Part shown: piece by piece, positions 7,047 to 40,037 of the stretch
Numbering within the stretch: position 1 is the first letter of the stretch
How the letters are laid out: each line of letters begins with the position of its first letter
Origin: Pseudomonas caspiana
GTDB taxonomy: Bacteria; Pseudomonadota; Gammaproteobacteria; Pseudomonadales; Pseudomonadaceae
Length of the DNA stretch: 64,000 bases
Reading direction: 5' to 3'
Assembly (NCBI RefSeq): GCF_002158995.1
Contig: NZ_LOHF01000001.1
Coordinates: forward strand, 438,437 to 502,436
Program-made: the position numbers and the translations under genes
Notes under the pieces: generated by a model
Told to the model about the DNA's origin: nothing
The model's input: the letters and a program-made list of their open reading frames with translations, nothing else
The model's database searches: none

Positions 7047-8771
7047 TTGACGATACTGACTGTTGCAAACGGCGCATCGAAACGCTGGAGAAATCACGTG
7101 GTGCGTTTGGCGTTCATTACTACTGCGTCAGCATTTCTGTGGCAGCCACTGAACACGTTTGCCGAGCAGACAGCGCCCGTTCCGCCCTATCCCGTTCAGA
7201 CTACGGATGATATTGAAAACCTGCTCAATCTTGATGAGCGCAAAATCATTCAGGAAGGCTTGATCTGGAGCACGGTCTATACCGGCCGGATCGATGGCAA
7301 CTTTGAAAAGGACACGCGTGACGCTATTGCGTTACTTCAGCAACAGTACCAACAACCCGAAACAGGTCGGCTGAGTACCAAAATGGCCGCGCGTCTTTAC
7401 CAGTTAGCCCAACACTCAAGAAACAAATTCGGCTGGGACAGTTTTACCGACTCTAAAACGGGCGTGATGCTGTCCTACCCGACCGCACTGCTTACGCCCT
7501 CTCCCGACCCGCGCACCGGAGCGATGGGGTTTGTATCGGACGACAAGAAAATATTGCTTCAGATGGTGAACCAGATTGGCGTTAAATTGGGCGCTATTGA
7601 CGCCCTTTATAAGCAAACGACTGAAAATTCAAAGTCGACCATCACCTACAGATTAAAGAACGAGAATATGTTCGTCAGCGCCGGAGAGCGTGGTGATCTC
7701 AAACACTACAGCCGTTACGAACAACGAGGGACTGAAATTCGTGGCTATGACCTGGTGTGGTTCCGCGAGCGTGATACGGAGATGCAAATTCTCTCCCCCT
7801 TGATTGCCAACAGTTTCGACCCATTCAGCACGCCCTCGACATACGACCCTTTTCTTAAACCTCGCGGGATAAAGTTTCCTCATTACCCCTACCTGAGTGA
7901 GCTCTCCAGGGAAATAAAAAAACAATCCGTCAGCAACAAGGCTTCATCCCTTGAGCGGCAAGCGCCGGTAAAAGCTACTGCCGATGGGCTTGGCCCGCGC
8001 TTTACCTATTTGTACGAGGAGCTCACGAGTGGCAAAGCTGTAGACGCCTATCGCGTGGCACGCAAGTCTGACTTGCTGAGAAGCAACGTCGCAATCGCCG
8101 CGCTGGATGGGATGTTCATGACGCAACATCCTCTGCGTTATATCGCCAGACCTTGTCGCGTGGATGCGGACTACGAGCCCGAGGAAGCCGCAGTTTTCCT
8201 GTGTTATGAGATGGTCGACTACCTTATTCGCGAGGCTAAATCTCTCTACGTCGATAAGGATCCGGCATTCCAGCTTCAATACATTAAAGCCAGGCTGCAG
8301 CTTATTCTTCTTCATGCGACAGGCCATGCGCTCATGGACCTCTTGAAACTGCCACCGCCTATGAACGTAGAAGAAGCTGTCGATCAACTGGTCGCCACCC
8401 TGATTCTGCTGGGTATGAAAAATGAGGACGATCCTGAAGAACTCACGCACATGCTGGCAATGAACGCGGCCGGGTTCAAAGCCGATCCATCAGTGCAACC
8501 GGCTTACACCCGCGACTATTTTTCCGACAAACACGCCTGGAATGAGGAGCGGTATTCCAACGTGCTGTGCATGATTTATGGCAGCAGCCCGAAGAAGTAC
8601 GCCTCGATTGTCGATCAGCAGTTGCTTCCGGAATCCAGAGCAGCAAGTTGCAGAGAAGATGCGCCGAAAAAATATGAAGCATGGGTAGGCTTCCTGTCGC
8701 CATACCTGGCACCGCGGTATCAGAAGAACAGCAGTTCAACTGATCGCCATGATGCGCAGACGCCGCAATGA
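7047..8771 (+). CDS. Peptidoglycan-binding / DUF4344-like metallopeptidase homologue with dead active site
   Basis: 574-residue exported protein. The TTG start at 7047 is supported by AGGA about 10 nt upstream and by alignment with the paralogue at 9530, which begins the same way. Domains: N-terminal leader (about 1-40), a PG_binding_1-like domain (about 60-115; LLNLDERKIIQEGLIW, then IDGNFEKDTRDAI), a middle domain, and a C-terminal DUF4344-like metallopeptidase domain (about 310-530). The zinc motif that should read HExxH is HATGH (around residue 420): the catalytic Glu codon is GCG. The paralogue keeps HETGH. This copy is therefore predicted to lack protease activity and may act as a binding or regulatory partner. 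It shares a rightward run with 3151-6976. Confidence 0.8.
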   Translation: MTILTVANGASKRWRNHVVRLAFITTASAFLWQPLNTFAEQTAPVPPYPVQTTDDIENLLNLDERKIIQEGLIWSTVYTGRIDGNFEKDTRDAIALLQQQYQQPETGRLSTKMAARLYQLAQHSRNKFGWDSFTDSKTGVMLSYPTALLTPSPDPRTGAMGFVSDDKKILLQMVNQIGVKLGAIDALYKQTTENSKSTITYRLKNENMFVSAGERGDLKHYSRYEQRGTEIRGYDLVWFRERDTEMQILSPLIANSFDPFSTPSTYDPFLKPRGIKFPHYPYLSELSREIKKQSVSNKASSLERQAPVKATADGLGPRFTYLYEELTSGKAVDAYRVARKSDLLRSNVAIAALDGMFMTQHPLRYIARPCRVDADYEPEEAAVFLCYEMVDYLIREAKSLYVDKDPAFQLQYIKARLQLILLHATGHALMDLLKLPPPMNVEEAVDQLVATLILLGMKNEDDPEELTHMLAMNAAGFKADPSVQPAYTRDYFSDKHAWNEERYSNVLCMIYGSSPKKYASIVDQQLLPESRAASCREDAPKKYEAWVGFLSPYLAPRYQKNSSSTDRHDAQTPQ

Positions 8772-9009: not shown

Positions 9010-9474
9010 ATGGCGACTGCATCCGTCAGGACAACAACACCTCGTAAAGCCCTGGCAGGCTTGATGGTGCCACTTGTACTTCTGGCCCTGCCCGTTTGCG
9101 TGCATGCCAGCGGGCAACTGCCACCCAGTACGATCGAAGACCGCACGTTGCCCAGCGCTTCTGCCTGCCGTGCTTTCCTCGAGACGACGTGGCGAGCCGA
9201 TCAGCAGAAAGCCGATCCGCAGCCTTTACCCGGTGACGACGGATCGAGGCAGACGTTGATCTACTCCGACGGCGTGATCGCCATTGATGACAAACACCTG
9301 ACTTACGAAGTCGAGGAAGGCTGGCAATTCCGGCGGCTTATACGCGATATCAATCAGATACGGACTTCCTACAGTTATGAAAGGCGAAGTTACAGGTGCG
9401 ATGACGCCCACCTGACAGGCACGAGCATCAAGGGCTATGCAATCGAAGGCTATGAAGCACTACCTGACAACTGA
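9010..9474 (+). CDS. Small exported protein of unknown function
   Basis: 154-residue predicted periplasmic protein with a signal peptide (about 1-34; hydrophobic LMVPLVLLALPVCVHA) and two cysteines in the mature part that could form a disulfide. The family is not recognised. It precedes the active metallopeptidase gene by 55 bp (using the TTG start at 9530), so the two probably form an operon under the operator at 8868-8885. By position it may be a substrate, inhibitor or cofactor of that peptidase, which is inference only. Confidence 0.6.
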   Translation: MATASVRTTTPRKALAGLMVPLVLLALPVCVHASGQLPPSTIEDRTLPSASACRAFLETTWRADQQKADPQPLPGDDGSRQTLIYSDGVIAIDDKHLTYEVEEGWQFRRLIRDINQIRTSYSYERRSYRCDDAHLTGTSIKGYAIEGYEALPDN

Positions 9475-9529
9475 AATAAATGATGACGAACTTACTTTAT
9501 CTAGCGTGCGCACTTCAGGGGCTATTCCA

Positions 9530-11314
9530 TTGACGATAGGGACTGTAGCAACCCGCTCCTCGACGAGCTGGAAAAATCGCATGGTGCACGTGGCGTTCAT
9601 CACAGCTGTCGCAACCCTTGCCTGGCAGCCTGGAGGCGTGTTCGCGGGTGCTGCAGCCCCCGCAAACCCTTATGCCACCCAGAATGCCGACAACACAGAA
9701 GGCTCGCTCAACCTCGATGAACGAAAGCTGATTCAGGAAGGCTTGATCTGGGGCGGTTTTTACAACGGTTGGATCGATGGCCAGTTTGGCAAAGGCACAC
9801 GGGACGCCATTGCCACTGTTCAGCAGCAATACAAGCAACCTGGCACCGGGATGCTCAATGCCGATCTCGCGGTGCATCTGGGTGGTATGGCGCTGAATAA
9901 CCGTAAGAAGTACGGCTGGACGACGATCACCGAACCCAAATCCGGCGTGACGCTGGCCTACCCTTCACAGTTGCTCACAAGGACCACCAGCCCGGAACCG
10001 AACTTCGTCAATATTGATTCTGAAGATCGGAGTGTTTCGATCCAGCTATTACGTATCGATAACGTCAAACCCGACGCCATCGACACGCTGTACAACGACC
10101 TGACCGGCAACGGTAAATCCACCGTCGCTTACTCGTTCAGAAAAGGCAGTTTGTTCATCATCTCGGGTGATCGCGGCACCGGAAAATATTACAGCCGCTA
10201 TGAACAGCGTGGTGGCGAAGTCCGAGGTTATGATCTGGTCTGGAGCGGCAGTCGGGACGCAGAAATGCAGCCGATCTCGGTATTGATTTCAAACACCTTT
10301 GAACCCTTCGATCCCCCTCGCCAGACAAGAGAACCTGACTACTCCTACCTTGTCGGGCTGGCCCAGGCTGCCAATAACCAAGCCGGCGGCAACCCGCCTG
10401 CAAATAACGCAAATACGCCACCACCCGCACAGCAACCTGCTCAGCAACAACCTGTGCAACAACAGCCCGCACAGCAGCAACCTGCCGCACAGAATGCGCA
10501 AAAAACCGATGTCTCGGACGGCAAGGGCACACGTTTTTCCTATACCTATCAGGCTCCGCGTGATGCTCGACTGGAAGATGCCTACCGTTTCACGCGCAAG
10601 GCTGACTTGCTGGTCGGTAACGTAGAAATTGACGCCATGGACGGCATGTTCATGATGCCTCGCCCTCTGCACTATGTGGCCATGGAGTGCGGGATGGTGA
10701 ATGCGTTCTACAGCCCGAAAGACTCGGCAGTCTTCCTCTGCTATGAGATGGTCAACTACCTGCTGCGTCAGGCCGATGAACTGAATACGAGCAACGATCC
10801 TGATTTCCCCACTGATTACGTCAAATCCAACCTGCGTTTTATTCTGTTGCATGAAACCGGCCATGCATTTATCGACTTGCTGAACCTGCCCTCTACCGGC
10901 CGTGAAGAAGACGCAGTCGATCAAATGGCGGCGACCATGATTCTGTTCCACGTCAACCGTGATGAGACACCTGAACAGCTGACTCGCGTACTGGCAATGA
11001 CGGCTACCTGGTTCAAAAACAATGCATCACTGCAAAACGGCAACACGCACAATGACGCGTTCTCGGATGAGCACTCCTTGAATGAACAGCGTTATTACAA
11101 TCTGCTTTGCATGGTTTACGGCCGTAATCCTCAGGAGTATGCGTCGATTGTCGATCGAGGGCTGCTACCGAAATCGAGAGCTGCACGCTGCCCTCAGGAA
11201 ACCAGCAAAATCGTCTCGTCTTGGGCGCGGTTACTGCTGCCCCACTTTGCCCCGCGCTATCAGAAGGACGCCAACGATTCAATCAACCGCCAGGATTCTC
11301 AGAGTCGGCAGTGA
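9530..11314 (+). CDS. Peptidoglycan-binding DUF4344-like zinc metallopeptidase
   Basis: 594-residue exported protein, close paralogue of the gene at 7047. The TTG start at 9530 is preferred: CAGGGG lies 9 nt upstream and the product then aligns from its first residues with the other copy; an ATG at 9437 would overlap the previous gene. Domains: leader (about 1-45), PG_binding_1-like (about 60-120), middle domain, a Gln/Pro-rich linker (about 320-350, repeated QQPAQQQP) absent from the paralogue, and a C-terminal DUF4344-like domain. The zinc motif is intact: HETGHAFID (around residue 445), followed about 20 residues later by EEDAVDQ, a candidate for the third ligand. A cell-wall-anchored periplasmic protease is the likely role. 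Confidence 0.8.
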   Translation: MTIGTVATRSSTSWKNRMVHVAFITAVATLAWQPGGVFAGAAAPANPYATQNADNTEGSLNLDERKLIQEGLIWGGFYNGWIDGQFGKGTRDAIATVQQQYKQPGTGMLNADLAVHLGGMALNNRKKYGWTTITEPKSGVTLAYPSQLLTRTTSPEPNFVNIDSEDRSVSIQLLRIDNVKPDAIDTLYNDLTGNGKSTVAYSFRKGSLFIISGDRGTGKYYSRYEQRGGEVRGYDLVWSGSRDAEMQPISVLISNTFEPFDPPRQTREPDYSYLVGLAQAANNQAGGNPPANNANTPPPAQQPAQQQPVQQQPAQQQPAAQNAQKTDVSDGKGTRFSYTYQAPRDARLEDAYRFTRKADLLVGNVEIDAMDGMFMMPRPLHYVAMECGMVNAFYSPKDSAVFLCYEMVNYLLRQADELNTSNDPDFPTDYVKSNLRFILLHETGHAFIDLLNLPSTGREEDAVDQMAATMILFHVNRDETPEQLTRVLAMTATWFKNNASLQNGNTHNDAFSDEHSLNEQRYYNLLCMVYGRNPQEYASIVDRGLLPKSRAARCPQETSKIVSSWARLLLPHFAPRYQKDANDSINRQDSQSRQ

Positions 11315-11592: not shown

Positions 11593-12594
11593 TTACAGCG
11601 AAATATCAACAGTGCGCTCTTCAAAATCCAGCGGCTGCCCGTGCTCAAGCAAATGCCTGATGCCGGGCCCGAGCAAGTCCTGCGGGCCGTCCAGCGGCAT
11701 GACCGGATATTGCTGGAAGCGTCGCCTGTTGGCGCTGACCTGCTCCAGAATCTGTCGGTCCTGGCGCAAGATGACCTTGAACGCCTGCCGCAATACCGCA
11801 CGCTTCAACACGGCGGGAATTTTGCCCCGCGCCGTCGCCACTCGCGCGAAAACCCGCAACTGCCCGTCCGCACAGGGCGTCATCCAGGCGCTGACCAGCA
11901 GATTAAGGCGATCGTTGCCATCGCGGTACTCGATTTCCGAGAGCCCTGGCAGGCGAAAACGTCCCATGCTTTTGCCACGCTGCCCCTCGAACAATCGCGA
12001 GATAAGCCCGGACTGTTTGCCCTCTTCACTGTAAATCGCCTCGATACCGTCATCGAGCGGGCGAACCCGGGCCGTGATGTGTTGGCGCTGCTTGTCATGA
12101 CGGATCCAGCCCGCATGGACAAAATGGGTATGAAATCCGTCCAGGAAGTTTTCCGCTGCATCCTGCAATGAACACTGCACTTGATCGGTCATCCAGAACG
12201 TATCGAGTTTCTGTCCGTGCTCGGCCGGGGCAACGGGCAAATCAACCGGACGCTGGTCACTCAGGCAGACCCACACCAGACCATGGGCTTCGCAGCAGGC
12301 CAGGCTGCTCAGCAATGCTTTGCTGGAGGGGACGTGATCAGTGCCGGGGACTCGGGTGCACCGACCATCCCCTGCGAACCGCCAACCGTGATAAGGGCAT
12401 TCAATGTGTCCATCGCGCACCTTGCCCTGACTCAACGGCGCAAAACGATGCGGACAACGATCGGGTAATGCGGCCGCAAGTCCATCGTCGGCGCGGAACA
12501 GCACCAGAGGCATGTCGTGAACCTGACACGCCATCGGGGCATTTTTCAGTTCGTGGCTCAGTGCGACCGGCCACCATTGAGCAAGGCGATTCAC
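11593..12594 (-). CDS. Rieske non-heme iron oxygenase
   Basis: 333-residue soluble oxygenase, last gene of the seven-gene operon. The GTG at 12594 overlaps the stop of the upstream GNAT-like gene (GTGA) and fixes the start. The N-terminal Rieske domain has CPHRFAPLSQG and, 17 residues on, CPYHGW, the full Cys-His/Cys-His set for a 2Fe-2S cluster. The catalytic domain has NFLDGFHTHFVH, matching the Asn/Asp-His-His pattern for mononuclear iron. Such enzymes hydroxylate, demethylate or desaturate small molecules with electrons from a separate reductase, not encoded here. In context it is probably a late tailoring step on the product of this operon. Confidence 0.85.
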   Translation of the reverse strand: MNRLAQWWPVALSHELKNAPMACQVHDMPLVLFRADDGLAAALPDRCPHRFAPLSQGKVRDGHIECPYHGWRFAGDGRCTRVPGTDHVPSSKALLSSLACCEAHGLVWVCLSDQRPVDLPVAPAEHGQKLDTFWMTDQVQCSLQDAAENFLDGFHTHFVHAGWIRHDKQRQHITARVRPLDDGIEAIYSEEGKQSGLISRLFEGQRGKSMGRFRLPGLSEIEYRDGNDRLNLLVSAWMTPCADGQLRVFARVATARGKIPAVLKRAVLRQAFKVILRQDRQILEQVSANRRRFQQYPVMPLDGPQDLLGPGIRHLLEHGQPLDFEERTVDISL

Positions 12595-13730
12595 AGTTTG
12601 AGTGTTCTCATGAGGGGCACACCGATTCCATGCAGCAGAACACTGAGCAATCGCCATATCCAGCGACGCCCCCAAGACAAATGGGCGACCTTGATCAGGC
12701 TGTATTCGATCTGCGGCTGCCCCCCGCGCAAGCGCTTGAAGCCTGCGGCGCCGGAGCTGAAATTCAGTACCGTACGGCGCTCGGCGGCTTCGAGCAGGCA
12801 CAGACAGGTCAGTTGCCGGTACAAACCGGCCTTCTGTGGCAACGCGGTGTCGTATCCCACAATCGGAGTGCTGAGGGTCGAGTCATTGGCGAACCAGCCC
12901 AGCGCGCCATCGATACGGCCATCCGGGGTGCGCAGAACACGCATCTCCAGCCAGCCTTCTCGTTGACCACGCTGCATCCAGCGGGCGCTGTAATGCGGAT
13001 TGAGTCGGCAATACTTGTCCAGATACAGCAGGTTATAAAGCTGTTCCACCCGTAGAAAATCACTGTCGTTCAGGGCAGCACCCGGCACTACTTCATAGGG
13101 GCTGCGCCGCAACAATGTGCGGTCGAGCCGGGTGTTGTGATGCCGGAGAAACGGTGCATCCACCCCGCTCCGGCCGTCGAATACATACACCTGTCGACTG
13201 GGAATGCTCAGAAAGCCCAGCGCTCGCAAACGTTGTTTCAGCTCGCGGTTGCTGAACTCATTGATCGAGCGAAAACACAGCGCATGATCAGGAAATGTCC
13301 GCTGCAAAAAAGCACTGATCTGCGGCAGCTCACTCAGATCCCAGTCAGCGGGATACAGGTTGGTGGACAGCAGCCAGTTGTTGACCTGGACCAGCTTGTC
13401 GACTTTGGCCGAACTCAACAAAGCGTCGACGCCTCGGGTCAGCGCACTCAGCGGTCGGGTCAGCCACGGGCGGCCGAGGCGCTTGAGCTCTTCGCGGGCA
13501 TACCCGCTGTAGGCGGTACGGGGCGACACCACATAGCAGTTGTCTTCAGGGTCATGTCCGTCGTTGATGCTCACCGCAAGCTGCTGCGTGCCGGTATCCA
13601 GCAGCGCCATCCGCGTGCTGACATTGGCGATCAATCCTGCCTCGGCCCAACCACGGACGTATTGTCGGGCGGGACTGTCGTGGGGTGTCACCGGCTCCTG
13701 AAGGAGCTGCTGCTGGAACAGTAATTTCAT
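12591..13730 (-). CDS. GNAT/FemAB-like acyltransferase
   Basis: 379-residue cytosolic protein. The start is the ATG at 13730, which overlaps the ATP-grasp stop codon (ATGA); an upstream in-frame start would run inside that gene. The C-terminal half resembles GNAT-fold proteins of the FemAB/BioF2 type (GWLEMRVLRTPDGRIDGALGW, then LYRQLTCLCLLEA). The N-terminal 150 residues look like a second, degenerate copy of the same fold. No specific acyl donor can be read out. Next to an ATP-grasp ligase and an adenylating enzyme it may transfer an acyl or aminoacyl group. Confidence 0.6.
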   Translation of the reverse strand: MKLLFQQQLLQEPVTPHDSPARQYVRGWAEAGLIANVSTRMALLDTGTQQLAVSINDGHDPEDNCYVVSPRTAYSGYAREELKRLGRPWLTRPLSALTRGVDALLSSAKVDKLVQVNNWLLSTNLYPADWDLSELPQISAFLQRTFPDHALCFRSINEFSNRELKQRLRALGFLSIPSRQVYVFDGRSGVDAPFLRHHNTRLDRTLLRRSPYEVVPGAALNDSDFLRVEQLYNLLYLDKYCRLNPHYSARWMQRGQREGWLEMRVLRTPDGRIDGALGWFANDSTLSTPIVGYDTALPQKAGLYRQLTCLCLLEAAERRTVLNFSSGAAGFKRLRGGQPQIEYSLIKVAHLSWGRRWIWRLLSVLLHGIGVPLMRTLKL

Positions 13731-14881
13731 TGCGGCGGGTCCGCTAATGCCTGGCCGTTCCACTCGATGTCTGCGGTGGATGCGGCCAGCACCCCGCAGC
13801 GGCGAGAGGCAGCGCGACAGAGGATTTCCCCCAGGCTCAGCCATTGAGCCGCCAGCGGCAGCACATCACCTTGCTGAACGATCACGTCGCGGGCCATACG
13901 GTAATCACGCCAGAACGTCCTGCTCAACGCCCGTGAAGGCGCAGCCAGTAAAAGCATCGCCAGCGCGATCATTCGTGGTTCCTGGGTGGGTTCAAGCACG
14001 CTGCCGGATGCTTCGCCAAGGCTGCTCACCAGCGCCTGACGCTGGTTGTCGAACAGGTGCACGCCGCTGGTGGCCCGAGGGTTGCACTCCAGTACATGGA
14101 AACGGCCAGCGTGATCTTCGATAAAGTCAAAGCCGACTTGCCCTGTATAGCCAGTTTCATGGCCGAACTGTTCCAGGAATAACCGCACAGATTCCGGCCT
14201 CGCAGGAGTGAAATAGATTCCCGAACCCCGGCCTACCCGATAGCGCGGCTGGTAGACGCTATGAGCGCGCAACTGGCCCTCCACCAGGACGCTGAAGCTG
14301 CAAAACTCCCGCCCTTGAATAAACCGCTGCGCAACCCAGGGCGCCTCGATACTGGGCTGAACCTTGCTAACCAGACTCGCGTCGGGCCGGATCAGGGTCT
14401 GTGAAGCGAAACGCGAGTAAGCCGGTTTGAACACCCACTGCGCAGTCTCTGCACTTAGCGCCAACACGGACTGCTGATCCGTCAGCAGGCGGGTTTCCGG
14501 CGTCGATAATGTCCAGTCCTGAGTCATGGCCGCGAATTGCCCCTTGTGATGCAGTCGGTGCAACAGCGCAAAATCACTGGTCAGCACCCGACACAACGGC
14601 CTGAGGCGCTCCAGACCATGAGCCAGGTAGAACACTTCTTCGCAGGTTGGCAACAATAGGTCAATGCGTTGTGCCTTGATCACGCTGGCCAGCGCTTCGA
14701 TCCAGCCAGCCGGATCGAGTCGGGGCTCAGGTAAACGAACGAAGTGCTGCACTGAACGACTGAAACGGCTCAGCGGCTGCCCCAGCGAGTCGCCCACGCT
14801 CACGGTCCAGCCGGCCTCGCTGAAGGCCCTCGCCCACTCCAGACACGCCGGTGCACGAGCCCCCAGAATCAGTACGCGCAT
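13727..14881 (-). CDS. ATP-grasp ligase
   Basis: 384-residue ATP-grasp enzyme, a fold that activates a carboxylate as acyl phosphate and joins it to an amine or thiol. The N-terminal pre-ATP-grasp domain begins MRVLILGARAPACLEWARAF. The ATP site shows WVFKPAYSRFASQT (nucleotide-binding lysine) and AQRFIQGREFCSFSV. The metal site is GFDFIED ... FHVLECNPRATSG, with the conserved Glu and Asn. It overlaps the upstream adenylating-enzyme gene by 13 bp and the downstream gene by ATGA. It resembles the carbamoyl-phosphate-synthase-like subgroup. An amide-bond-forming role in a small-molecule pathway is inferred from context. Confidence 0.8.
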   Translation of the reverse strand: MRVLILGARAPACLEWARAFSEAGWTVSVGDSLGQPLSRFSRSVQHFVRLPEPRLDPAGWIEALASVIKAQRIDLLLPTCEEVFYLAHGLERLRPLCRVLTSDFALLHRLHHKGQFAAMTQDWTLSTPETRLLTDQQSVLALSAETAQWVFKPAYSRFASQTLIRPDASLVSKVQPSIEAPWVAQRFIQGREFCSFSVLVEGQLRAHSVYQPRYRVGRGSGIYFTPARPESVRLFLEQFGHETGYTGQVGFDFIEDHAGRFHVLECNPRATSGVHLFDNQRQALVSSLGEASGSVLEPTQEPRMIALAMLLLAAPSRALSRTFWRDYRMARDVIVQQGDVLPLAAQWLSLGEILCRAASRRCGVLAASTADIEWNGQALADPPQ

Positions 14882-16227
14882 GGTAGCCCCTCAGGCAATT
14901 GCAGGAGCTTCAGGCGTCGACGTTTGAAGTGCGGGGCCGGAGCTTGCCAGTGACCGAAGCTGAATGCTGGCGGACGTACGCCCTGTCCGGCACATAGGTG
15001 TTGAAGGCTTTCGCGAATTGCCTGGCACAGAGCGTCATGATCGCAGCGGGCCTGAACGTTGATCTGCCAGTTCAGGTTCGTCTGATGGATTTCATACTCC
15101 TGCAGCGTAGCGCCGTGCATCAGCAAGGTTCGGCGCACGACATCCGGATACAGCGCGCACAACTGGCGCCCCGCCACATCAGGCAGCCAGAGGATATCGT
15201 CGGCACGCCCTTCGATAGCGGCGATTGCCCGCTCGACCCGCCCGCAAGCGCAAGGCGCCTCGCTAACCCGCAACACGTCGTTGAGGCGATACCGCACGAT
15301 TATCTGCGTGCGACGGGAGAAGTCGGTAATGATGGGCTGGAAACGGGTGTGCCCGGCGTCGAGCCACTCCGGTTCAATGTGCAGATGGCTTTCATTGAGA
15401 TGCAAAGTCCCTTGCTCGCAGGTGTAGCCAAGAAAGCCTTCGCTGGCCTGATAAATCTGCTGCGGCATTACCCCGAAAGCTTTGAGAACGGCATCTGCAT
15501 CCGTGCTTTCAAGCACTTCGGCCACCGACAGAATATGCGTCGGACGGATCGACAAACGCTCGCTTAATGAGGCTTCAGCCAGCCCCCGCAACACCGTTGC
15601 CGGGGCTACAAGCACATCGGGGTTCTGCGCCTGCAGACGTTCAAGTGACGCTTCGAGCCCGAGTGTCAGGTCGTGAAACGCGAAGTCGATACGGCGACTG
15701 CTCAACGTGGTGTACAAACGGCTATTGGCCCGCAGGAAGAAAGCGATCCGCAAGGGCGCTTGCCAGAAGCACAGCAAACGCGGAAGGAAGCGGCCCGGCA
15801 AGGTCCGCGCCAACAGAATCCCGGCCCAACGCTGACGCTCCAGGGTGCTGACCAGAAACACACCTTGATTACCGGATGTGCCGCTTGAAAGCCCCACGGT
15901 TATATCGCCCAGCGTAGGGCTGAAATCGCGGGATTCTTCTGCTTGCCGCGCGACGGGCAAGACCTGATCCAGACCAAGACCGCGAGTGTTGAACGCCGCA
16001 AAGTCGCTCATCATTGTCGCTTTGTCCATCAGCGGAAAGTCCGCCAGACGAGTGAAGTGATGGTCTTTGAAGCGCTCGGCTGTCGGCACCACGTTTTTCA
16101 GAAAAAACTTCAGCTGTTGAGCCTGCCACGCTTCCAGTTGCTCTCTGCGAGTGAAGCGCAAGCGATAGCGACTGTTGAGAAAACTCAGCGCGCTGCGCAG
16201 CTTGCCGATCAAGCGTTCATTGCTCAT
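14869..16227 (-). CDS. PaaK / F390-synthetase-like adenylate-forming enzyme
   Basis: 452-residue member of the ANL adenylating superfamily. Motifs in order: SSGTSGNQG (phosphate loop), YQASEGFLG (A5-like), IVRYRLNDVLRV (A7-like), a CACGR cysteine motif typical of PaaK/coenzyme F390 synthetase relatives, and GRADDILWL (A8-like). The C-terminal Lys-rich KRRRLKLLQL could contain the catalytic lysine. It would activate a carboxylic acid as acyl-AMP. The start overlaps the upstream metallo-hydrolase gene by 11 bp. The operon has no obvious carrier protein, so transfer to CoA or directly to an amine is more likely. Confidence 0.8.
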   Translation of the reverse strand: MSNERLIGKLRSALSFLNSRYRLRFTRREQLEAWQAQQLKFFLKNVVPTAERFKDHHFTRLADFPLMDKATMMSDFAAFNTRGLGLDQVLPVARQAEESRDFSPTLGDITVGLSSGTSGNQGVFLVSTLERQRWAGILLARTLPGRFLPRLLCFWQAPLRIAFFLRANSRLYTTLSSRRIDFAFHDLTLGLEASLERLQAQNPDVLVAPATVLRGLAEASLSERLSIRPTHILSVAEVLESTDADAVLKAFGVMPQQIYQASEGFLGYTCEQGTLHLNESHLHIEPEWLDAGHTRFQPIITDFSRRTQIIVRYRLNDVLRVSEAPCACGRVERAIAAIEGRADDILWLPDVAGRQLCALYPDVVRRTLLMHGATLQEYEIHQTNLNWQINVQARCDHDALCQAIRESLQHLCAGQGVRPPAFSFGHWQAPAPHFKRRRLKLLQLPEGLPCAY

Positions 16228-17071
16228 TGCTGAACGCCTCCCAGGCGTGCGTGCAGTGCGAAGGTAACACCGCCACGGCAGGTTCTCGACGGATCAGCGT
16301 GCCGAGGCTGGCATAGGTCTTTTTGTACTGTCTGGCATCGTGACCGGCAAACCACAATGCAGGCGCCGCAGGCAGTCGCTCTGCGCGGCAAGCGGGCACC
16401 GACCAGCAGGCATCGGCCACCAGAAATACCGGACGCCCTTGAGCATCAGGAATGAACAACCCCAGTTGGCCACGGCTGTGTCCCGGCAGCGGCACGCCGA
16501 TCAGACTGCCGTCGCCAAACAGGTCCAGGCCTTGGGTGAACGGGGCCATCCATTCAGGCAAGGTCGCCGGCCTGCAATGATCAGCCAGGATCAGTCGGCT
16601 GGCGAAATCGTCCGGCAGCAAGCCCGGCAAATGGCCGCCAAGGGTCGCCCGCCAGCGCGAGTCCCGCAGGCTTTCAATGTGCTGACGGTCAGCATCAAGC
16701 GCAATGAATGAAGCCTGATTGAAATCCCGCAACCCGGCGATATGATCGCCGTGAAAATGCGAAATGATCACTGTGCGGATATCCTCAGGCTGAATGCCGA
16801 AGTCATTCAGTTGAGCGATCAACTGCTCCTGTATCGGCAATTGCACCGGCACTGCGGTGCGGTACAAACGCTCTGGCAAGGTTTGGGTGGCATTGAAAAA
16901 GTGTTCGGCGTAACCCGTGTCGTACAGGATCCAGCCGGCGTCGGGATGGCGAATCAGGCCGCACAGTGACGGAAACCGCGTCGGCGCCCAGCGGGCGCTG
17001 CGATCAGCCATGCACGCCAGGTGTCGGCACCAACCGGCGCGCAATACGTTGAGGCTGACTGTGCGGCTCAC
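16217..17071 (-). CDS. Metallo-beta-lactamase-fold hydrolase
   Basis: 284-residue MBL-fold enzyme. The GTG at 17071 overlaps the upstream stop codon (GTGA) and is the best start. Metal ligands: SHFHGDHIAG (HxHxDH), PGHSRGQLG (third His), VADA (bridging Asp) and PSHCTHAW near the end (last His). The overall pattern is like the AiiA lactonase/glyoxalase II branch, so a lactone or thioester is a plausible substrate. In the operon it may release or edit a thioester intermediate made by the ketosynthase. No signal peptide. Confidence 0.8.
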   Translation of the reverse strand: MSRTVSLNVLRAGWCRHLACMADRSARWAPTRFPSLCGLIRHPDAGWILYDTGYAEHFFNATQTLPERLYRTAVPVQLPIQEQLIAQLNDFGIQPEDIRTVIISHFHGDHIAGLRDFNQASFIALDADRQHIESLRDSRWRATLGGHLPGLLPDDFASRLILADHCRPATLPEWMAPFTQGLDLFGDGSLIGVPLPGHSRGQLGLFIPDAQGRPVFLVADACWSVPACRAERLPAAPALWFAGHDARQYKKTYASLGTLIRREPAVAVLPSHCTHAWEAFSNEQ

Positions 17072-18075
17072 GGTTTTATGCCCTGTTGCGCAAGCCACCA
17101 CTGGGCGTGCTGGCGGATGCCCTGCTCCTGAGTGATCACTGTGCGGTAACCCAGCTCGTTACGTATCGCGTCCAGGTTCAGGGTCTGGCTGAATGCAAGC
17201 ACTCCGGCGCCATATCGAGTCAGTAAAGGTTCGCCGCTGTGACGCAGTCGAGCGCTGGTTTCAAACGCTAGCGCCACGGCGTCCACCAACCGCCATGGCA
17301 GGCGTCGGGTGCGCAGAGTGAGGTGAAATTGCTCGGCGATTTGATGCAACAAATCCTCAAAAGCCAGGGGCGTACCGTTGCTCACGTTGTAAGTGCAGAC
17401 GGGGCGCGGCAACGGTTGATTAAGGCTCAGCTCCACGGCGTGGACCAGGTTGTCGATGCAGGTCAGGTCCAGTCGGGCCCTGCCACCGCGCATCAGGGGT
17501 ATGTGCCCGCGCTGCATGACACGCAACAGCCGTGGCAACAACGTACCGTCCCATGGGCCGAATACCGCACGCGGACGCAAAATCACCGCCTCGGCAAGAC
17601 CCGCCTCCTGAACCTTCATTTCGGCCAGCGCTTTGGTGCGTGCGTACTCGTTGACGGGCATTGGCAAAGGTTCGCTTTCATGGATATCGAGTCGATCACG
17701 AAAGGCAAAGTACAGGCTGGGTGTCGAAAGGTGCACAAGGCGCTTGACCTGATTGATGCGACAGGCGTTCAGCACTTCTTCGGTGGCCGTCAGATTGGCC
17801 TGGGCAAACGCGTCTGTCGTTCCCCAGGGCGAGGACAACGCTGCGCAATGGACAACCGCCGTGCAGCCCCGCGCGGCCTCGATCAGTTTGTTCGCCCCGG
17901 CTGAAGAACCATGCTCAAGGGCAAGCCACTCGATGGCACCCGGGCTGTGCCGAATGACATCGGCCGCCGCTGTCGCATTGCGTCCGCTGAACAGCACTTC
18001 ACAGCCTTGGGAGGCAAGTCGCCAGACGATATGGCGACCAATGAAACCAGTGCCGCCGGTCACCAGAATTTTCAT
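17068..18075 (-). CDS. NAD(P)-dependent extended SDR (epimerase/3-beta-HSD-like)
   Basis: 335-residue extended short-chain dehydrogenase. The Rossmann motif GGTGFIG lies at residues 7-13; the catalytic region has STPSLYFAF and NEYARTKALAE (YxxxK with A and R between). The start at 18075 overlaps the stop of the ketosynthase gene (TGATG). It resembles 3-beta-hydroxysteroid dehydrogenase and OleD-type 2-alkyl-3-ketoacid reductases, which act after a FabH-like condensing enzyme. That makes reduction of the 3-oxo product of the upstream enzyme the most attractive reading, though unproven. Confidence 0.8.
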   Translation of the reverse strand: MKILVTGGTGFIGRHIVWRLASQGCEVLFSGRNATAAADVIRHSPGAIEWLALEHGSSAGANKLIEAARGCTAVVHCAALSSPWGTTDAFAQANLTATEEVLNACRINQVKRLVHLSTPSLYFAFRDRLDIHESEPLPMPVNEYARTKALAEMKVQEAGLAEAVILRPRAVFGPWDGTLLPRLLRVMQRGHIPLMRGGRARLDLTCIDNLVHAVELSLNQPLPRPVCTYNVSNGTPLAFEDLLHQIAEQFHLTLRTRRLPWRLVDAVALAFETSARLRHSGEPLLTRYGAGVLAFSQTLNLDAIRNELGYRTVITQEQGIRQHAQWWLAQQGIKP

Positions 18076-19091
18076 CAATACTCCAGGATCATGCCGCCGA
18101 TCGATAATCCTGCACCGGTACCGATCAACATCAGGATCTGCCCGCGCTGAATGCGCTGGTCACGAATCGCTATATCCAGCGCTGTCGGCAGCGAGGCAGC
18201 CACCTGATTGCCGTGATGAGCAAAAATGTCGATGACTTTCTCCGGGGCAAAACCCAGGCGCCTGGCCGCATGCTGCATCGCTTGCTGGCTGGCTTGATGA
18301 GGGATTACCCAGTCGATCTGGTCTTGAGTCAGCCCGGCCTGATCCAGCAGATCATTCATCAATGTGGGCAAGTGCTTCGCGGCAAGACGGAATACGCCTT
18401 TGCCCTGCATGGAAAAACTGGTCAAAGGTTCGAACGGGATATCGATACGCCGAGGATGAAAGCGCGACCCACCGGCCGGGATCTGGCATAAATGAGCGCC
18501 CTCGGCAAACGTCTTCAGGTTCGAAGCGATAATCTTCGCCCCGCCTTCGCTCGCGCACAGAACGACAGCCGCTGCGCCGTCGCCGAATATGCCGCTGACT
18601 TCCACATGCTGCCAATCCAGTCCACAGGACGCGATGTCGGAACAGACCAGAAGAATACGCCGGTAGCGACCGGCGACGAGGGGCCATGACAAGGTGTCAA
18701 TGGCGGCAATAAACCCCAGGCAACTGGCATTGATGTCCATGGCCGGGATGCCGGAGTGACCCATGCCTAATTCACGTTGCAACAACGCGGCGTTGCACGG
18801 CATGCCCTGATCCATAGTGCCACTGGCACAGGCGATCAAGTCGATCTGGTCCAGCTCGAGACCGGCCGCCGCCAGGGCATTTCGCGCGGCGGTCGCGCCC
18901 AGGCTCGCGGCTGTTTCGGAGCTGGACGCGACATGCCGCTGAACAACCCCACTGATCTGCTCGACGCTCCCCGCCGCCAGGCCAAGCTCACGATCAAGGG
19001 CGATACTGGTGACTATTCTGTCCGGCAGCGCATGCCCGGAACCGATGATGGTCACAGGCCGTGGAGGCAAAGCCAGCGGTGAAGTCTGCAT
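18075..19091 (-). CDS. 3-oxoacyl-ACP synthase III-like ketosynthase (FabH family)
   Basis: 338-residue thiolase-fold condensing enzyme. The Cys-His-Asn triad is intact: DINASCLGF (Cys ~115), WVIPHQAS (His) and HHGNQVAAS (Asn). It would condense an acyl-CoA or acyl-ACP starter with a malonyl or beta-keto unit. It is the first gene of a leftward seven-gene operon in which every junction overlaps. Operator copy D lies 65 bp upstream with a minus-strand -10-like TATAAA at 19133-19128. Since it heads a cluster with tailoring enzymes it is more likely to make a special metabolite than to initiate bulk fatty-acid synthesis. Confidence 0.85.
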   Translation of the reverse strand: MQTSPLALPPRPVTIIGSGHALPDRIVTSIALDRELGLAAGSVEQISGVVQRHVASSSETAASLGATAARNALAAAGLELDQIDLIACASGTMDQGMPCNAALLQRELGMGHSGIPAMDINASCLGFIAAIDTLSWPLVAGRYRRILLVCSDIASCGLDWQHVEVSGIFGDGAAAVVLCASEGGAKIIASNLKTFAEGAHLCQIPAGGSRFHPRRIDIPFEPLTSFSMQGKGVFRLAAKHLPTLMNDLLDQAGLTQDQIDWVIPHQASQQAMQHAARRLGFAPEKVIDIFAHHGNQVAASLPTALDIAIRDQRIQRGQILMLIGTGAGLSIGGMILEY

Positions 19092-19156
19092 TCAAATTCC
19101 GTTTAGAGAAAAACATTGTACTGACACTTTATACGGGCTGGTTACCGCAGGACGGT

Positions 19157-19174
19157 ATAGTACATGTGTACTAT
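19157..19174. promoter_or_regulatory. Palindromic operator, copy D
   Basis: ATAGTACATGTGTACTAT, a perfect 8-2-8 palindrome between the biosynthetic operon (minus, first gene starts 19091) and the DUF2339 gene (plus, 19351). The minus-strand -10-like TATAAA (19133-19128) starts 23 bp away. Confidence 0.8.
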
Positions 19175-19350
19175 TTTTTAAGCGCCTGAAACACTTTAAG
19201 TTATTGAAAATAAGTGCACATTTCAAACTTTGGGCTTATTCATATCTTTCAGGCGACGCTGGCAGATTTGTTGACGGTTCCACCCCGCACTGACGCTCAA
19301 TAGTGAGCGATCGAGGCGTCCCTGCTCCTTACTAAAAAGGAAGTTATTGA

Positions 19351-33019: not shown

Positions 33020-36000
33020 TCAGTTGACCTTGATCTGGCCGTATGCAGGTTTCTGCTCAAGGGCCTGATGCTGCGGTGCGTAGACTTGGGTGAAGCGCAC
33101 TGGCGGCAGATTGAACTGGCCTTTTTGCGAGAAACGCACCAGATGCCGCATGCGCAACTCACCGCTCAAGGCATCCACCGGAATTGCGTAGCCCAGCTGG
33201 CCCGGCTCGAAGCGCGCTTTCTCAAGCGCCGCCGCTTCCGTGCCCGCCTTGCCCTGGAGTTTGATACCCCAGGTCGTTTGCTCGATATCAGCGCCGGGCG
33301 GCAATGGCACTTCGATCATGCCGTAGCGCAGTGGCTTGGCAGCCTTACTGGTGATGATGACTTCATCCAGATAGAGGCTGTCACTGAACAGTGGTTTACC
33401 GTCGACGGCTTCGAGAGTGAACGTGAACGCTTCAGTGCCCGGTACAAGACGGGAAAGACGGCGAGTGACGGTCACTGGCATTGACTCCGCTACAGGCTGT
33501 CGGGTCTGGTAGCTGAGCAACGCACGTAGCGGGCGCTCCTGGGCTCCGGCCAATGACAACGATGCAGGTACTGGATTGGCTCCCTCCCATGTCCAGTACA
33601 TTTCACCGCTGACACCGTAGCGCTTCTTCCAGCCTTCGCCTGGCGCCAGCGCGATGGTCGGCGACGCCTGCTCGATACTGCGCTGCAGCCAGCTCAGCGC
33701 CAAGGCACGCTCAAGGGTTGATTGCTGCGGCAGTAGACGCTCCAGCAACGCACGCGCACGTCCTTGATCAAAACCTTTCACCGACAGATTCAAGGCTTCG
33801 GCGAATGGCTCGGAGCTGACATCCAGTCGCTGCTGGGCACCCGGCAACTGACGACTGAACGCCTCCGGCATGACCACCTTGTTCTGTCTGGCCAGCGAAG
33901 CCGTGATGACCCGCGCGGCTGCGAGGCCTAAAGCAGAGTCCGGGGCGTTCATGACGATGCTGCCCTCATCCATGTCCATCACCTTGGCCTGCACGCCCTC
34001 GCCGGCTTTCGCCAAGTCATCCATCAAGCCACCGAGCAACGTATTGACCGGCAATTGCATTTGTCTGGCAAAGGAGAGGATCAGTGCACGTTGCAACAGC
34101 GGCGTTTTCCCGGCCTGCTTCGCATAGACAGCCAGCACACGCTGCCAATGGTCTGGCGGCAGCGATAACTCCAGCGCCTTGCTCGCGTGCCAGTCAGCGT
34201 AGTAGGCGTAAGCCGTGAGGAACGCGTCCGGCTCACCGCCATGACCCCACCAGGTAAAACTCGCCGAAGGCCCTGCCAGATGCACCAGCCGTAAACGGCT
34301 GTTTTGCATGATCAGGCGCAAGCGGTCTCTGATTTGCGGATCAGATGACAGCATCGGATACGCCATGCCCAGTGGCAGCAAACGGCTGGCTGTCTGCTCG
34401 ACACCGCCATAGGGGTAGCTCAGCAGATCATCCAGTGCCGAGCGAAACAACGCTTGCGGGCTGTCATCCAGGCGCAGTCGAACGGCGGTCGCGTCGGCTG
34501 GCAAGGTCAGCGGCGTATCGCCACTGACCGCGTCCAGACTCTGGCTCTGCGTGACCTGCCAGCCCTCACCGGTGGAAGCCAGGCTCACAGCCAGTGCGTC
34601 AGCGACTTTACCGTCCTGGACCAGCTCGGCCTTCCACTCGCCACTCGCCAGCGGGAATGCAGGCAATGCGATGTAGTTGATGCCTTTGTTCAGGGTCACC
34701 GGTATGCGTTGCTCGGCTCCAGCGTAGTGGGTCACAAGTTCTGACTTGACCGGCTGGTCGGCCTGGCTGAACGCGAACACGCCGAGCTCCGGTTTATCTC
34801 CGGCACGGAACCGGGTTGGCCCGCTCCATTTCAGGTACAACGGTTTTTCTGAACGCACGAACTGCTTTTTCTGACCAACCTGTCCTGTTTGATCGATGGC
34901 CCGGGCAGTGATGCGCCAGCGAGTCAGCGAGTCCGGCATTTTGAAGGTGAAGCGCACTTTACCGTTGGCATCGGTCACCAGTTCAGGCTCCCACGCGGCG
35001 GTATCGACGTCTTCACGACGTGGCCGCTCCAGCACTTTTACGCTGCGATCACTGCGATTGGCTTTGCCCGGAGCTGACGGGCTGCCAGGCAACGCGACGT
35101 CGTAGCTGATGAAGGACAAACTGGCACTGGTGCGCACGTTGTTGCGGCGCGGGTGGTGGAAGAACTGGTCGATGGCAGGCGCAATTTCCGGCTGCAGCGC
35201 ATAGATCATTTCGTCCACCACGCTGACCGTCAGGTGCGCGGGAATCGGTTTGCCTGCGAACTGAGTCGTCAGGTCCACCGACACGATGTCGCCCGGTCGA
35301 TAAGCATCTTTGTCGGTGGCAATCGCCACGTCGATCTGCGGTGCAACGACCTTGATCCCGGCGTTCTGGAAGCTGTACTGCCCGCCTTTGGTGTACAGCA
35401 CCGAGAAGGTCAGGTTCGGTGCGAAATTGTCCTTCACGGCAATGCGTGCGCGGTACTGGGTGTCGTTGAGTTTTTCCAGCTTCAACCAGTCGCCACCCTT
35501 GGACAGCAACGCCGTGGCTTCGACCTTGTCCCGCTCCAGAGACAGCAAGGCATCGCTGACGGGCTCAGGGAAGGTGATCAGCGCCGAGGCTTCGTCGCCG
35601 ACTGTGTACTCGGATTTGTCGAAAATGACTTCGACGGTACCCGCTACCGCCTTGACGCCGGCACCCGTTACCGAGTGCCCCGTGGCACCCAGCAAATGAC
35701 CGTTTTCATCCATCAACGTCAGGTTGTAAGTGCCCGGTTGCTGAAAGGTCACACCGAAACCCTGGTCCGCCGCGACGAGCTTGTCGCCGCCACTGGTCTG
35801 GTCCTCCAGACGCACCCATTTATAGCTGGCAGGCGTGGAGGCTTTGCTTTGCTCGCTGCCGCCTTCACTGGAATAGCTGAAGGCAACTTTCTCACCGACG
35901 GCACTGAACCGTTGCGGGGCTTTAATGCGGAAGCTGGCGGCGCCTCGGTCAATCAGGATTTCTTTCGTGGTCCTGACACGATACGCCGCACCGTCACTGG

Positions 36001-37594
36001 CAAACACAGTGAGCATGTAACGACTGGGTCTGAAGGCAGGTGGCAGGTCGATTGTCGCGTTGCCTTTCGCGTCAGTGGTGAGTTCGGCGCTTTTCAATTC
36101 CATCGGGAATTGCCCGAGGTATTGCAGTTCATTGTCCACGGTCGACAGCTGCTGAGCGCGTAGGCTCAAGGTCAGTTTTGCATTCGCCACCGGTTTGCCG
36201 TCCGGATAGAGCAAGGTCAGGTTGCCTTTCACCGGCTCGTTGATGCTGTAGTCCTGCTTGGCCAGGTTCAGGGAAATCTCAAAGTGCGGCTTGATGTACT
36301 CTGCCACGCGAAATGCGCTGCTGTAGGCCTGATCCCTGTAGCTGAAACGCACTTCGTAGCCACCCGCGACTGCATTATCCGGAAGCTGGAAACGGCCTTG
36401 AGCGCCCGCCTTCGAATCGAGCTTCAGGGCCAGTGACTGCAGCGCCGTACCGGTTGCATCCAAGATGGTCACATCAACGTCGGCAGCGACGGGCGCAACG
36501 GAATCGCGAGCATTTTTGAACTCACGGCCAACGATCTTCAGCGATACCCAATCGCCGGGGCGATATAACGGCCGGTCAGTGAATGCGAAGAGTTTGGTGT
36601 CGTAGATCTCGCTGTCGTAATAGAAATTCTCCGCGACGAAAACACCGCCTTCCTGGTCTTCACCTATCACGAATGAACGTTCGGGGCTGACGTGTTTCAG
36701 CCTGAGCAAACCCTGCGCGTCAGTCGCGCCGCTGCTCATGACGCCCAGGCCGTCGGTCCAGAGCACGTTGACCTTGTCGGCCGGGTTGCCTTCGTTTTTG
36801 CGGGCGGCCCACACGAGAAGCTCATCACCGGCAACCTTGCTCACTGCAACGGTATTAGAAACGAACACCATGGTCGTGGCGCGGTACTTGCCGATCAGCG
36901 CCTCCACGAGATACAGGCCGGGCTTCAACTTGCCCAGAGGGATGTAGACGTTACCGGGCACGACTTTGATGAACTTGCTTGACGAGCCGTTCAGGTCAAC
37001 CCCAGCCGGCGGCTGGATTGGTTTTGCCTCCCAGATCGGGTAGCGGAACTGACTGACCACCGGCAAACCGGGTATCAGTGCAAACTGCGCTTGCGCCTCA
37101 TAAGGTGTAGGCGCAGACATCGCGTTACCCATCTTCAGTTCAGGCACTTCTTCTGTGACCTGCTTGCGGGACTCATAGGAAAACGCCCGCTGCATGACGC
37201 GCCGGGACTGGCGATACCAGCTGTCCCAGAGATACGAGAGGGTGTTGGACAGCCCTTCACCCCTGAACTGCCCCTCACTGACTACGCGATGCAGATTTTT
37301 CTGGCGCTTGAGGAAGTCCATGGGTTTGTCGATGCGATACACACGGATATCCGCGCCGCCGTAAGGCTGCATGCGGAACCGGCGATAATCACGGCCCGGG
37401 GCCTCAAGACGTACCGCGGCCTGCTCATCGCTGGAAAAGCTGCTGTCCGCCAGCAGGAAAAAGCTTTCTCCCGGCACTGCGCTATAGCCGCTTGGCTCGA
37501 CGCTGTCATCGGCGTTGACGCTGGAAAGAGGCAGCAAAAGAGCCAGCGACAATGAAATCAGAGAGCAAATACGCGGCATGCGGGCACCGATCAT
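33020..37594 (-). CDS. yfaS: Bacterial alpha-2-macroglobulin (YfaS/MagD-like)
   Basis: 1524-residue periplasmic alpha-2-macroglobulin homologue, a protease-trapping family. The ATG at 37594 overlaps the YfaT stop (ATGA) and precedes signal peptide [21 protein letters not shown]. Seen in order: MG domains with [16 protein letters not shown] (~340), a second block near residue 770 ([15 protein letters not shown]), a putative bait region (~850-880; [11 protein letters not shown]), the A2M family motif (~890-960; [12 protein letters not shown]) and the TED-like domain ([17 protein letters not shown]). The thioester cysteine of the usual CxEQ motif is absent (GVEQ), as reported for P. aeruginosa MagD, so trapping would be non-covalent. 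Confidence 0.9.
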
Positions 37595-38229
37595 TGGGAG
37601 AGAAAGTTGAGTCGATAGACGCCGATAAAATTCGGGTTGGCAGCGTCGGGTATCCATCGGGTGTCCTTCCATGTCATGAGTTGCTGCAGGCTTGCCGAGC
37701 GCATGCCGTTGTCAGTGGGTGTCGTGGTGCCGGTGTGATAGGCGATGTAGCGGCCCATCCAGATCATCAGGTGCTGATCGTCGCCCTGATCGAAAAACAT
37801 CAGGTCGCCCGGTCGGGCCTGAGCCATGTCGCGTCCGACCAGATGACTGTTGAACTGAATCAGTTTGATCGCATTCACATAGGGCCCGGTTTTCCCGTCG
37901 CCCTGCTGCCACTGCTGTGCGAGTCCTCGCTGAGCGTCGCTCAGTTGCATCTCGGGCGGCAGGTATCGGTTGGACAAACCATTGCTGCGCAGCCACTTAT
38001 CGTCATGAACCTTCAGCGCTTCATTACTGGCAAAGCGCACCAGACCAGCGCAATCCTGCTGATACCAGCGCGGGCTGGGGCCCTGGGCCAATTGCTCTTG
38101 AGCAATCCTTACAAACCAGGCACGGAATACCTGAGATTGCTGCGCGTCGAGCGCTGGCACCGCACTGGCAAACGCAGGGCCGCCGAGCAGTATCGCCAAC
38201 AGCGCAAGGCCCCGACCCAGAGCAATCAC
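37591..38229 (-). CDS. yfaT: DUF1175 protein YfaT/MagE-like, NlpC/P60-like
   Basis: 212-residue exported protein. The GTG at 38229 overlaps the YfaA-like stop (GTGA) and begins the signal peptide ([19 protein letters not shown]). The pattern DCAGLVRFA (candidate catalytic Cys, residue ~60), PGDLMFFD and HLMIWMG (candidate His) matches NlpC/P60 cysteine peptidase order, which usually cleaves peptidoglycan stem peptides. DUF1175 is placed in this group by resemblance only. The stop overlaps the start of the alpha-2-macroglobulin gene. It may process cell wall or the macroglobulin's partners. Confidence 0.75.
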
Positions 38230-40001: not shown

Positions 40002-40037
40002 GTTCACAAAACCCAATTCATCCGTGGGAGGGGATGA

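Follow-up and report, generated by a model that had tools for sequence, protein, structure and literature searches.

A conserved four-gene core with an exchangeable tail in a seven-gene overlapping operon of Pseudomonas caspiana

Introduction

The described systems closest to the operon considered here each share part of its enzyme set. The alkylquinolone (PQS) pathway pqsABCDE combines an adenylate-forming (ANL) enzyme, a FabH-like ketosynthase (KS) and a metallo-beta-lactamase-fold (MBL) thioesterase, and the OleABCD and OleACD clusters hold a thiolase-fold condensing enzyme, an OleD-like short-chain dehydrogenase/reductase (SDR) and an adenylating enzyme together. MxnB and CorB belong to the myxopyronin and corallopyronin pathways, FemX, MprF and Sbb17 have a double-GNAT (Gcn5-related N-acetyltransferase) fold, and the ornithine-lipid pathway, which includes OlsE, follows an aminolipid logic. 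Here we describe a seven-gene operon at positions 11593-19091 of a 64,000-nt stretch of Pseudomonas caspiana DNA (contig NZ_LOHF01000001.1, positions 438,437 to 502,436; hereafter the window), taken from a 6.1-Mb genome in 49 contigs. The operon encodes a KS, an SDR, an MBL-fold hydrolase, an ANL enzyme, an ATP-grasp protein, a double-GNAT protein and a Rieske oxygenase (Table 1). The unit is a conserved four-gene core (KS, SDR, MBL and ANL) followed by an exchangeable tail, and its gene order is conserved in Pseudomonas and beyond.

The operon also departs from each of these systems. Compared with the Ole clusters, it has a FabH-type KS without the OleA glutamate, a PaaK/F390-type ANL enzyme and an MBL-fold protein in place of OleB, together with an extra ligase, a double GNAT and a Rieske enzyme. 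Unlike the PQS pathway, it has a single KS, an SDR and different tails, with no evidence for an aromatic ring. MxnB and CorB are the closest solved relatives of the KS, but no modular polyketide synthase (PKS) was seen by the operon, and joining of two chains by the operon KS is hypothetical. In a structural model, the GNAT protein appears to share the FemX/MprF/Sbb17 fold over nearly its whole length (model residues 34-403), although its sequence has no significant match to any solved chain. The likeness to ornithine-lipid synthesis lies in the hydroxylase of an alternative tail, which is nearest to OlsE but scores far below the OlsE cut-off, and the core enzymes differ. No description of the gene set was found in an open-access library, with subscription papers and cluster databases outside the search, and we provisionally regard the set as undescribed, as an earlier sequence-based reading of the window (the original prediction) had supposed.

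Results

The core is conserved and the tail is exchanged

A scan of genome contigs for the ANL protein gave 43 related loci, 37 of which have the complete core. The six incomplete loci are L066 (no KS), L069 (no MBL) and L071-L074, where the ANL is 34-36% identical and all three partners are missing. Two tails account for most of the 37 core loci: ATP-grasp, GNAT and Rieske genes in 23, and genes for a PAP2 protein, a sterol-desaturase-type hydroxylase and an acyl-CoA desaturase in 8. The remaining six have ATP-grasp and GNAT (one), ATP-grasp alone (two), the hydroxylase alone (one), a sulfotransferase (one) or no tail gene (one). No locus among those mapped combines the core with both ATP-grasp and PAP2. 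The core was likewise complete in 12 of 12 regions around further ANL matches (L122-L133). The genes are thus co-conserved and the same order is found in many species, which bears out the original prediction on this point. Individual loci deviate in detail: L040 has no more than a partial Rieske match, L037 has its KS in two pieces and a partial Rieske match at a contig end, and in L054 (Dactylopiibacterium) the ATP-grasp match covers part of the protein while GNAT and Rieske were not found.

The distribution within Pseudomonas links the ANL and ATP-grasp genes. TIGR02304, the model matched by the ANL, scored above cut-off in 18 of 298 sampled Pseudomonas genomes, 13 at 369-403 bits (the operon type) and five at 582-603 bits. 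Strong ATP-grasp matches (401-452 bits; two fell just short of the cut-off of 406, the other 11 passed it) occurred in exactly those 13 operon-type genomes among the 296 Pseudomonas genomes searched, and 16 other genomes had weak matches only (<=39 bits). The five genomes with the 582-603-bit ANL type gave no ATP-grasp match at E <= 0.001; the three of these ANL regions that were examined (L122-L124) carry the PAP2/hydroxylase/desaturase tail. Across the phylum, TIGR02304 was above cut-off in 7 of 398 genomes, the window's own included.

For a tree of the concatenated core, 72 ANL rows were collected and 15 were set aside beforehand as near-duplicates, partial or distant. Seven rows without a clean core ORF (L034, L054, L066, L069, L084, L087 and L132) were also left out, several of which have the gene by tblastn; L075 has no clean ANL ORF. 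Over the 51 rows of the tree, the pairwise distances of the four core proteins correlate at 0.951-0.961. The 15 rows labelled PAP2-type fall on one side of a single branch (SH-aLRT 100); 14 of them show that tail, and L128 has no tail gene. Rows of the ATP-grasp type are scattered through Bacillota and several groups of proteobacteria, with four changes needed. This distribution suggests that the ATP-grasp tail is the older of the two, in a tree that is unrooted and whose long branches make deep placements unsure.

The core in E. coli, on plasmids and in other hosts

The alternative tail of PAP2, fatty-acid hydroxylase and fatty-acid desaturase is present in E. coli and Ralstonia, among others. 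One example is E. coli ABU 83972 (L085:8372-15253), where the core, PAP2, an OlsE-like hydroxylase and a desaturase lie between narI and two tRNA-Tyr genes. This 6.9-kb stretch was matched in 672 of 5426 RefSeq complete E. coli genomes, an uneven sample of the species, and 671 of the matches cover 80% of its length or more. Carriers include LF82, NRG 857C and ABU 83972, and E. coli Nissle 1917 was matched with the ANL gene as query. No described function was found for this sister operon. The hydroxylase scores 66.6 bits against the OlsE cut-off of 475. A 386-kb "plasmid" record of E. coli KE48 (L079) has nar genes together with the sister operon and galU, an arrangement like that of a chromosome, and may be a misassigned chromosome piece.

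Plasmids carry the core as well (10 records examined of the 61 with an ANL match). It is accompanied by ATP-grasp and GNAT in Paraburkholderia (L077, with an unannotated Rieske match in two pieces) and Paenibacillus (L083), and by ATP-grasp in Pontibacillus (L080). In Shinella (L082), Roseateles (L087) and Rhizobium (L088) it occurs with GNAT and Rieske genes and a divergent ATP-grasp. In three Rhodobacterales cores, on the Ketogulonicigenium (L078) and Paracoccus (L092) plasmids and in L075, a divergent sulfotransferase and a TetR regulator take the place of the other tails, a hint of a sulfated product. Scattered core, ANL or ATP-grasp homologues were also noted on Pseudomonas megaplasmids of ~0.9 Mb (L081, L084, L089 and L090); L089 and L090 are on one plasmid, where the ATP-grasp gene lies ~0.5 Mb from the core.

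Catalytic residues are kept in the core enzymes

Conservation was counted over 25-63 rows per protein, window protein included and L134-L137, L079, L037 and over-long ORFs excluded; L071-L074 were also excluded for the ANL. The KS matched PF08545/PF08541 in Pfam. Among NCBIfam models it passed PRK09352 (250.8 bits, cut-off 249) and fell below PRK07204 (395.5 bits, cut-off 402) and the curated fabH model TIGR00747 (235.1 against 292.1 bits). Its Cys-His-Asn triad is kept, with C124 and H265 in 59/59 rows and N295 in 58/59, as are S118, Y145 and K149 of the SDR (61/61). The MBL protein matched PF00753, and its nearest models and solved chains are acyl-homoserine lactone lactonases, with the models under their curated cut-offs (70 bits against 390 for AttM, the remaining lactonase models lower). 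Its HxHxDH motif and dinuclear metal ligands (H115, H117, D119, H120, H208, D230 and H282) are complete in 60/60 rows.

The ANL passed TIGR02304 (F390 synthetase-related; 402.9 bits, cut-off 251.9) and gave a weak match to the solved PaaK chain 4r1l. E263, D317 and the C-terminal K435 are present in 63/63 rows and the P-loop positions in 61-63. No Pfam family was matched at E <= 0.01, PF00501 included, which we take to be the family of OleC-type adenylating enzymes. A transposon mutant in a "coenzyme F390 synthetase", possibly of the same family as the operon ANL, is listed in a table for a kiwifruit pathogen (PMC9823363) and another for P. aeruginosa ATCC 27853 (PMC5467263), and an F390-synthetase-like gene is part of a D. 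psychrophila fatty-acid cluster that differs from the operon set (PMC2649909).

The tail enzymes and their predicted folds

The ATP-grasp protein passed PRK06849 (NF005315) at 431.9 bits (cut-off 406) and keeps K113, K152, E265 and N267 in 40/40 rows. Against solved structures, its sequence alone matched nothing at E <= 0.01 and, used as a profile, gave one weak match. AlphaFold2 models of this protein and of the double GNAT were built from the window protein and relatives. The ATP-grasp model (confidence, pLDDT, 90.4) has PylC, PurK and L-amino acid ligases in its top Foldseek rows. In VIA its closest rows are 2pn1, the GAR synthetases and PurK (Z 23-26), and biotin carboxylases rank just below them. 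The protein is an ATP-grasp enzyme, to which we assign no subtype.

By sequence, the GNAT protein matched Acetyltransf_6 alone, below cut-off (19.5 against 22 bits, Pfam), and no NCBIfam family. Its model (pLDDT 87.0) spans two GNAT domains, and the best VIA rows over residues 34-403 are Sbb17 (Z 17.1, root-mean-square deviation (rmsd) 3.6 Å, 261 aligned), FemX (Z 16.0 and 15.6), MprF (Z 15.3) and FemA (Z 14.6). Six of the fold families named in the original prediction stood as given in Pfam and NCBIfam; on the evidence of the model, FemX/MprF-like double GNAT is the better description of its "GNAT-like" protein. A plain acetyl-CoA N-acetyltransferase was considered for this gene and set aside as less consistent with the model, for which the best VIA matches are aminoacyl-tRNA-dependent and the tandem acetyltransferases have an rmsd of 7-9. 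Given the aminoacyl-tRNA-dependent transferase fold, two amino-acid-attaching enzymes may be present in the operon.

The Rieske protein matched PF00355 and PF19112 (VanA_C), keeps CxH...CxxH in 25/25 rows and DxxHxxxxH in 24-25, and has dicamba O-demethylase first and SxtT among its nearest solved chains. The operon encodes no reductase for it. The residues regarded as intact in the original prediction, those of the KS, MBL, ATP-grasp and Rieske proteins, are conserved by these counts.

Twenty gene comparisons against three species gave Ka/Ks values of 0.075-0.19, some with Ks above 1.2 and so near saturation, and place each of the seven genes under purifying selection. Together with the conserved active-site residues, these values suggest that all seven are maintained, and, with a gene order kept in many species, they show that the operon is not a chance arrangement.

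A proposed pathway

The reading that we favour, though tentatively and with no claim that it is the probable one, is that the seven genes form one biosynthetic unit in which an acyl product of the core is decorated by the tail, giving an aminoacylated beta-hydroxyacyl lipid (lipo-amino acid). The FabH-clade KS would add a malonyl unit, drawn from the host fatty acid pool, to a fatty-acyl (or other acyl) starter and so form a beta-ketoacyl thioester, the MBL hydrolase would release the chain, the OleD-like SDR would reduce the beta-keto group to a hydroxyl and the PaaK/F390-type ANL would activate the acid as acyl-AMP. The ATP-grasp enzyme could then form an amide with an amino compound, the double GNAT could transfer an amino acid from aminoacyl-tRNA to the hydroxyl or an amine, and the Rieske enzyme could hydroxylate or desaturate the product with a reductase encoded elsewhere. 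In other hosts, genes for a lipid phosphatase, a fatty-acid hydroxylase and a desaturase would complete the same core product. We infer that the steps run from extension through release, reduction, adenylation and aminoacylation to oxygenation. The condensation, reduction, activation, joining to an amine and oxidation of the original prediction fit the enzyme families and come close to it, likewise as inference; the division into core and tail, the fold of the GNAT protein and the wide occurrence of the core had escaped it.

The proposal draws on the single overlapping unit, the kept order, the complete core, the correlated distances of the core proteins, the co-occurrence of ATP-grasp and ANL, and the lack of a carrier protein in 14 flanking ORFs. 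A lipid-type product is favoured because the alternative tail encodes a fatty-acid hydroxylase, a desaturase and PAP2, and because the closest fold matches of the double GNAT attach amino acids to lipids, peptides or the core of an antibiotic. The nearness of the tail hydroxylase to OlsE, remote though it is, and of the ATP-grasp model to PylC, PurK/GAR-synthetase types and amino-acid ligases counts in the same direction.

Several observations weigh against this pathway. The double GNAT is absent from L131-L133 and the Rieske gene from Firmicutes loci, so that the chemistry of the tail is not fixed. In Deinococcus (L086:8995-11243), ATP-grasp and GNAT are paired without the KS core and may be a module of their own. 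The correlations of core distances fall to 0.41-0.55 for distant pairs. The FemX/MprF link of the GNAT protein has no support from sequence, its profile giving 10 rows among solved chains, all at E 0.22 or worse. In the structure comparisons, the acetyl-CoA-dependent tandem GNATs VipF and MAB_4324 come close in score (Z 13.8-14.5, rmsd 7.3-8.7; VipF Z 14.5, rmsd 7.7), and the first Foldseek rows are 3frm, a GNAT protein of no assigned function that ranks first, and L-PGS. The fold is in any case no proof of aminoacyl-tRNA use. Finally, aromatic acids are the more frequent substrates of PaaK-type enzymes, which would speak for a starter that is not a lipid.

Alternative routes

The aromatic preference of PaaK-type enzymes leads to a PQS-like route, in which the PaaK-related ANL would activate an aromatic acid, the KS would add malonyl, the MBL protein would be a thioesterase like PqsE and hydroxylation of the ring would fall to the Rieske enzyme. 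The KS does match the PQS enzyme 3h76 (104 bits), and a ring hydroxylation would suit a Rieske protein nearest to demethylases and hydroxylases. Among solved chains, however, the KS is nearer to FabH and MxnB/CorB than to PQS enzymes, and the fatty-acid hydroxylase, desaturase and PAP2 of the alternative tail suit an alkyl chain. We consider this route unlikely, though it and an Ole-like one are the main rivals of the lipid reading.

An Ole-like route would use the KS, SDR and ANL as OleA, OleD and OleC, close a beta-hydroxy acid to a beta-lactone and add amino acids through the tail, as in compounds of the lipstatin kind. The roles correspond one to one, and OleD is the best NCBIfam model of the SDR. 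In one study, oleACD clusters without oleB are reported to yield beta-lactones, and a glutamate present in all but two of the OleA proteins aligned is described as essential for condensation in X. campestris OleA (PMC7064751). At that column (Glu117, then Pro), the window KS and all eight aligned relatives have Met, Leu or Ile, whereas both OleA references have Glu-Pro; these references are two sequences beside OleD genes passing the OleD cut-off (641.8 and 641.3 bits), not picks by a curated model. The SDR reaches 180.7 bits against the OleD cut-off of 580, and is surpassed on this model by a second SDR encoded in the genome (233 vs 180 bits), so the resemblance of the operon SDR to OleD is at superfamily level. 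The ANL is of the TIGR02304/PaaK type, with no Pfam family, and an MBL protein occupies the place of OleB. The absent glutamate makes a true Ole pathway unlikely; we rejected it, as the OleA glutamate, OleC type and OleD score are all lacking. The looser Ole-like route to a beta-lactone appears improbable.

Head-to-head condensation, in which the KS would join two acyl thioesters like MxnB/CorB in the alpha-pyrone antibiotics and the other enzymes would trim the product, is suggested by the two best solved relatives of the KS, 4v2p (208 bits), presumably the ketosynthase MxnB, and CorB (4yuc, 200 bits). The KAS III 4ryb follows just behind at 197.6 bits, and the ranking therefore does not separate FabH-like from MxnB-like action. 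MxnB and CorB are members of the FabH clade that also lack the glutamate, with Val at that position (PMC4578411). No polyketide line was seen among the flanking ORFs scanned, and we regard this route as decidedly improbable. A degradative or detoxifying operon is most improbable of all: catabolic pathways often use MBL lactonases, PaaK-type ligases and Rieske oxygenases, but a FabH-type KS serves synthesis, as do an ATP-grasp ligase and a FemX/MprF-like transferase, and the operon has no beta-oxidation gene (though an enoyl-CoA hydratase adjoins the core in L059). The biosynthetic reading, with an aminoacylated lipid as product, remains the one that we prefer.

Operon layout and neighbouring genes

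As the original prediction had it, the seven ORFs fill the region and neighbours overlap at 6/6 boundaries. With the most plausible starts, the overlaps are 1, 4, 11, 13, 4 and 4 nt; the preferred MBL (GTG 17071), GNAT (ATG 13730) and Rieske (GTG 12594) starts overlap the preceding stop, and longer overlaps arise because the ORF starts are over-long. In the long GNAT ORF, residues 1-36 have pLDDT below 50 in the AlphaFold2 model. GC content is 60.2% in the operon and 55.4% across the rest of the window.

Table 1. The seven operon genes and the adjoining upstream region, in window positions
Feature	Position	Strand	Remarks
KS, FabH-clade beta-ketoacyl synthase III, core gene 1	18075..19091	-	338 aa, ATG
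SDR, extended NAD(P)-dependent reductase, OleD/3beta-HSD kind, core gene 2	17068..18075	-	335 aa, ATG
MBL-fold hydrolase, lactonase/thioesterase-like, core gene 3	16217..17071	-	284 aa, GTG; ORF reaches 17101
ANL, F390-synthetase-related/PaaK-type adenylate-forming enzyme, core gene 4	14869..16227	-	452 aa, ATG
ATP-grasp carboxylate-amine ligase-like protein, tail gene 1	13727..14881	-	384 aa, ATG
Double-GNAT (FemX/MprF-like) transferase, tail gene 2	12591..13730	-	379 aa, ATG; ORF reaches 13844
Rieske non-haem iron oxygenase, DdmC/VanA kind, tail gene 3	11593..12594	-	333 aa, GTG; ORF reaches 12801
Upstream region common to KS gene and divergent DUF2339 gene	19092..19350		Carries palindrome

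The palindrome ATAGTAC-N4-GTACTAT lies at 19157-19174, 66-83 nt before the KS start. It recurs at a similar distance in P. viridiflava (L039) and was not found in the other 17 of the 19 upstream regions compared; it is a possible operator or regulator site. A Pfam scan of 14 flanking window ORFs detected no carrier-protein, non-ribosomal peptide synthetase (NRPS) or PKS family, in agreement with the original prediction. The flanking DUF2339/DUF3999 genes and DUF4344 metallopeptidases were considered as operon parts and set aside, since by family they look unrelated. Two of these putative metallopeptidases, which carry peptidoglycan-binding domains, are encoded near each other next to the operon (7047-8771 and 9437-11314), and an alpha-2-macroglobulin-like protein (1550-aa ORF) is encoded near a DUF2138 protein on the minus strand (window 33020-40016). 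Nor did Pfam yield an informative match for four upstream genes of L041 and L050.

Discussion

The enzyme families of this operon are known singly; the interest lies in how they are combined, in the modularity of the combination and in its extension to E. coli. It is possible, if rather doubtful, that the operon represents an undescribed class of bacterial lipids or lipid signals, in which a cross-phylum KS-SDR-MBL-ANL core is joined to interchangeable finishing modules, either ATP-grasp with an aminoacyl-tRNA-dependent transferase or hydroxylase, desaturase and PAP2, the latter in ~12% of complete E. coli genomes. If this is right, a single product family would connect plant-associated Pseudomonas with Firmicutes, with Ralstonia and with human-associated E. 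coli, and it would lie outside the NRPS/PKS-centred view of secondary metabolism. The core in E. coli Nissle 1917 offers a tractable entry to the product.

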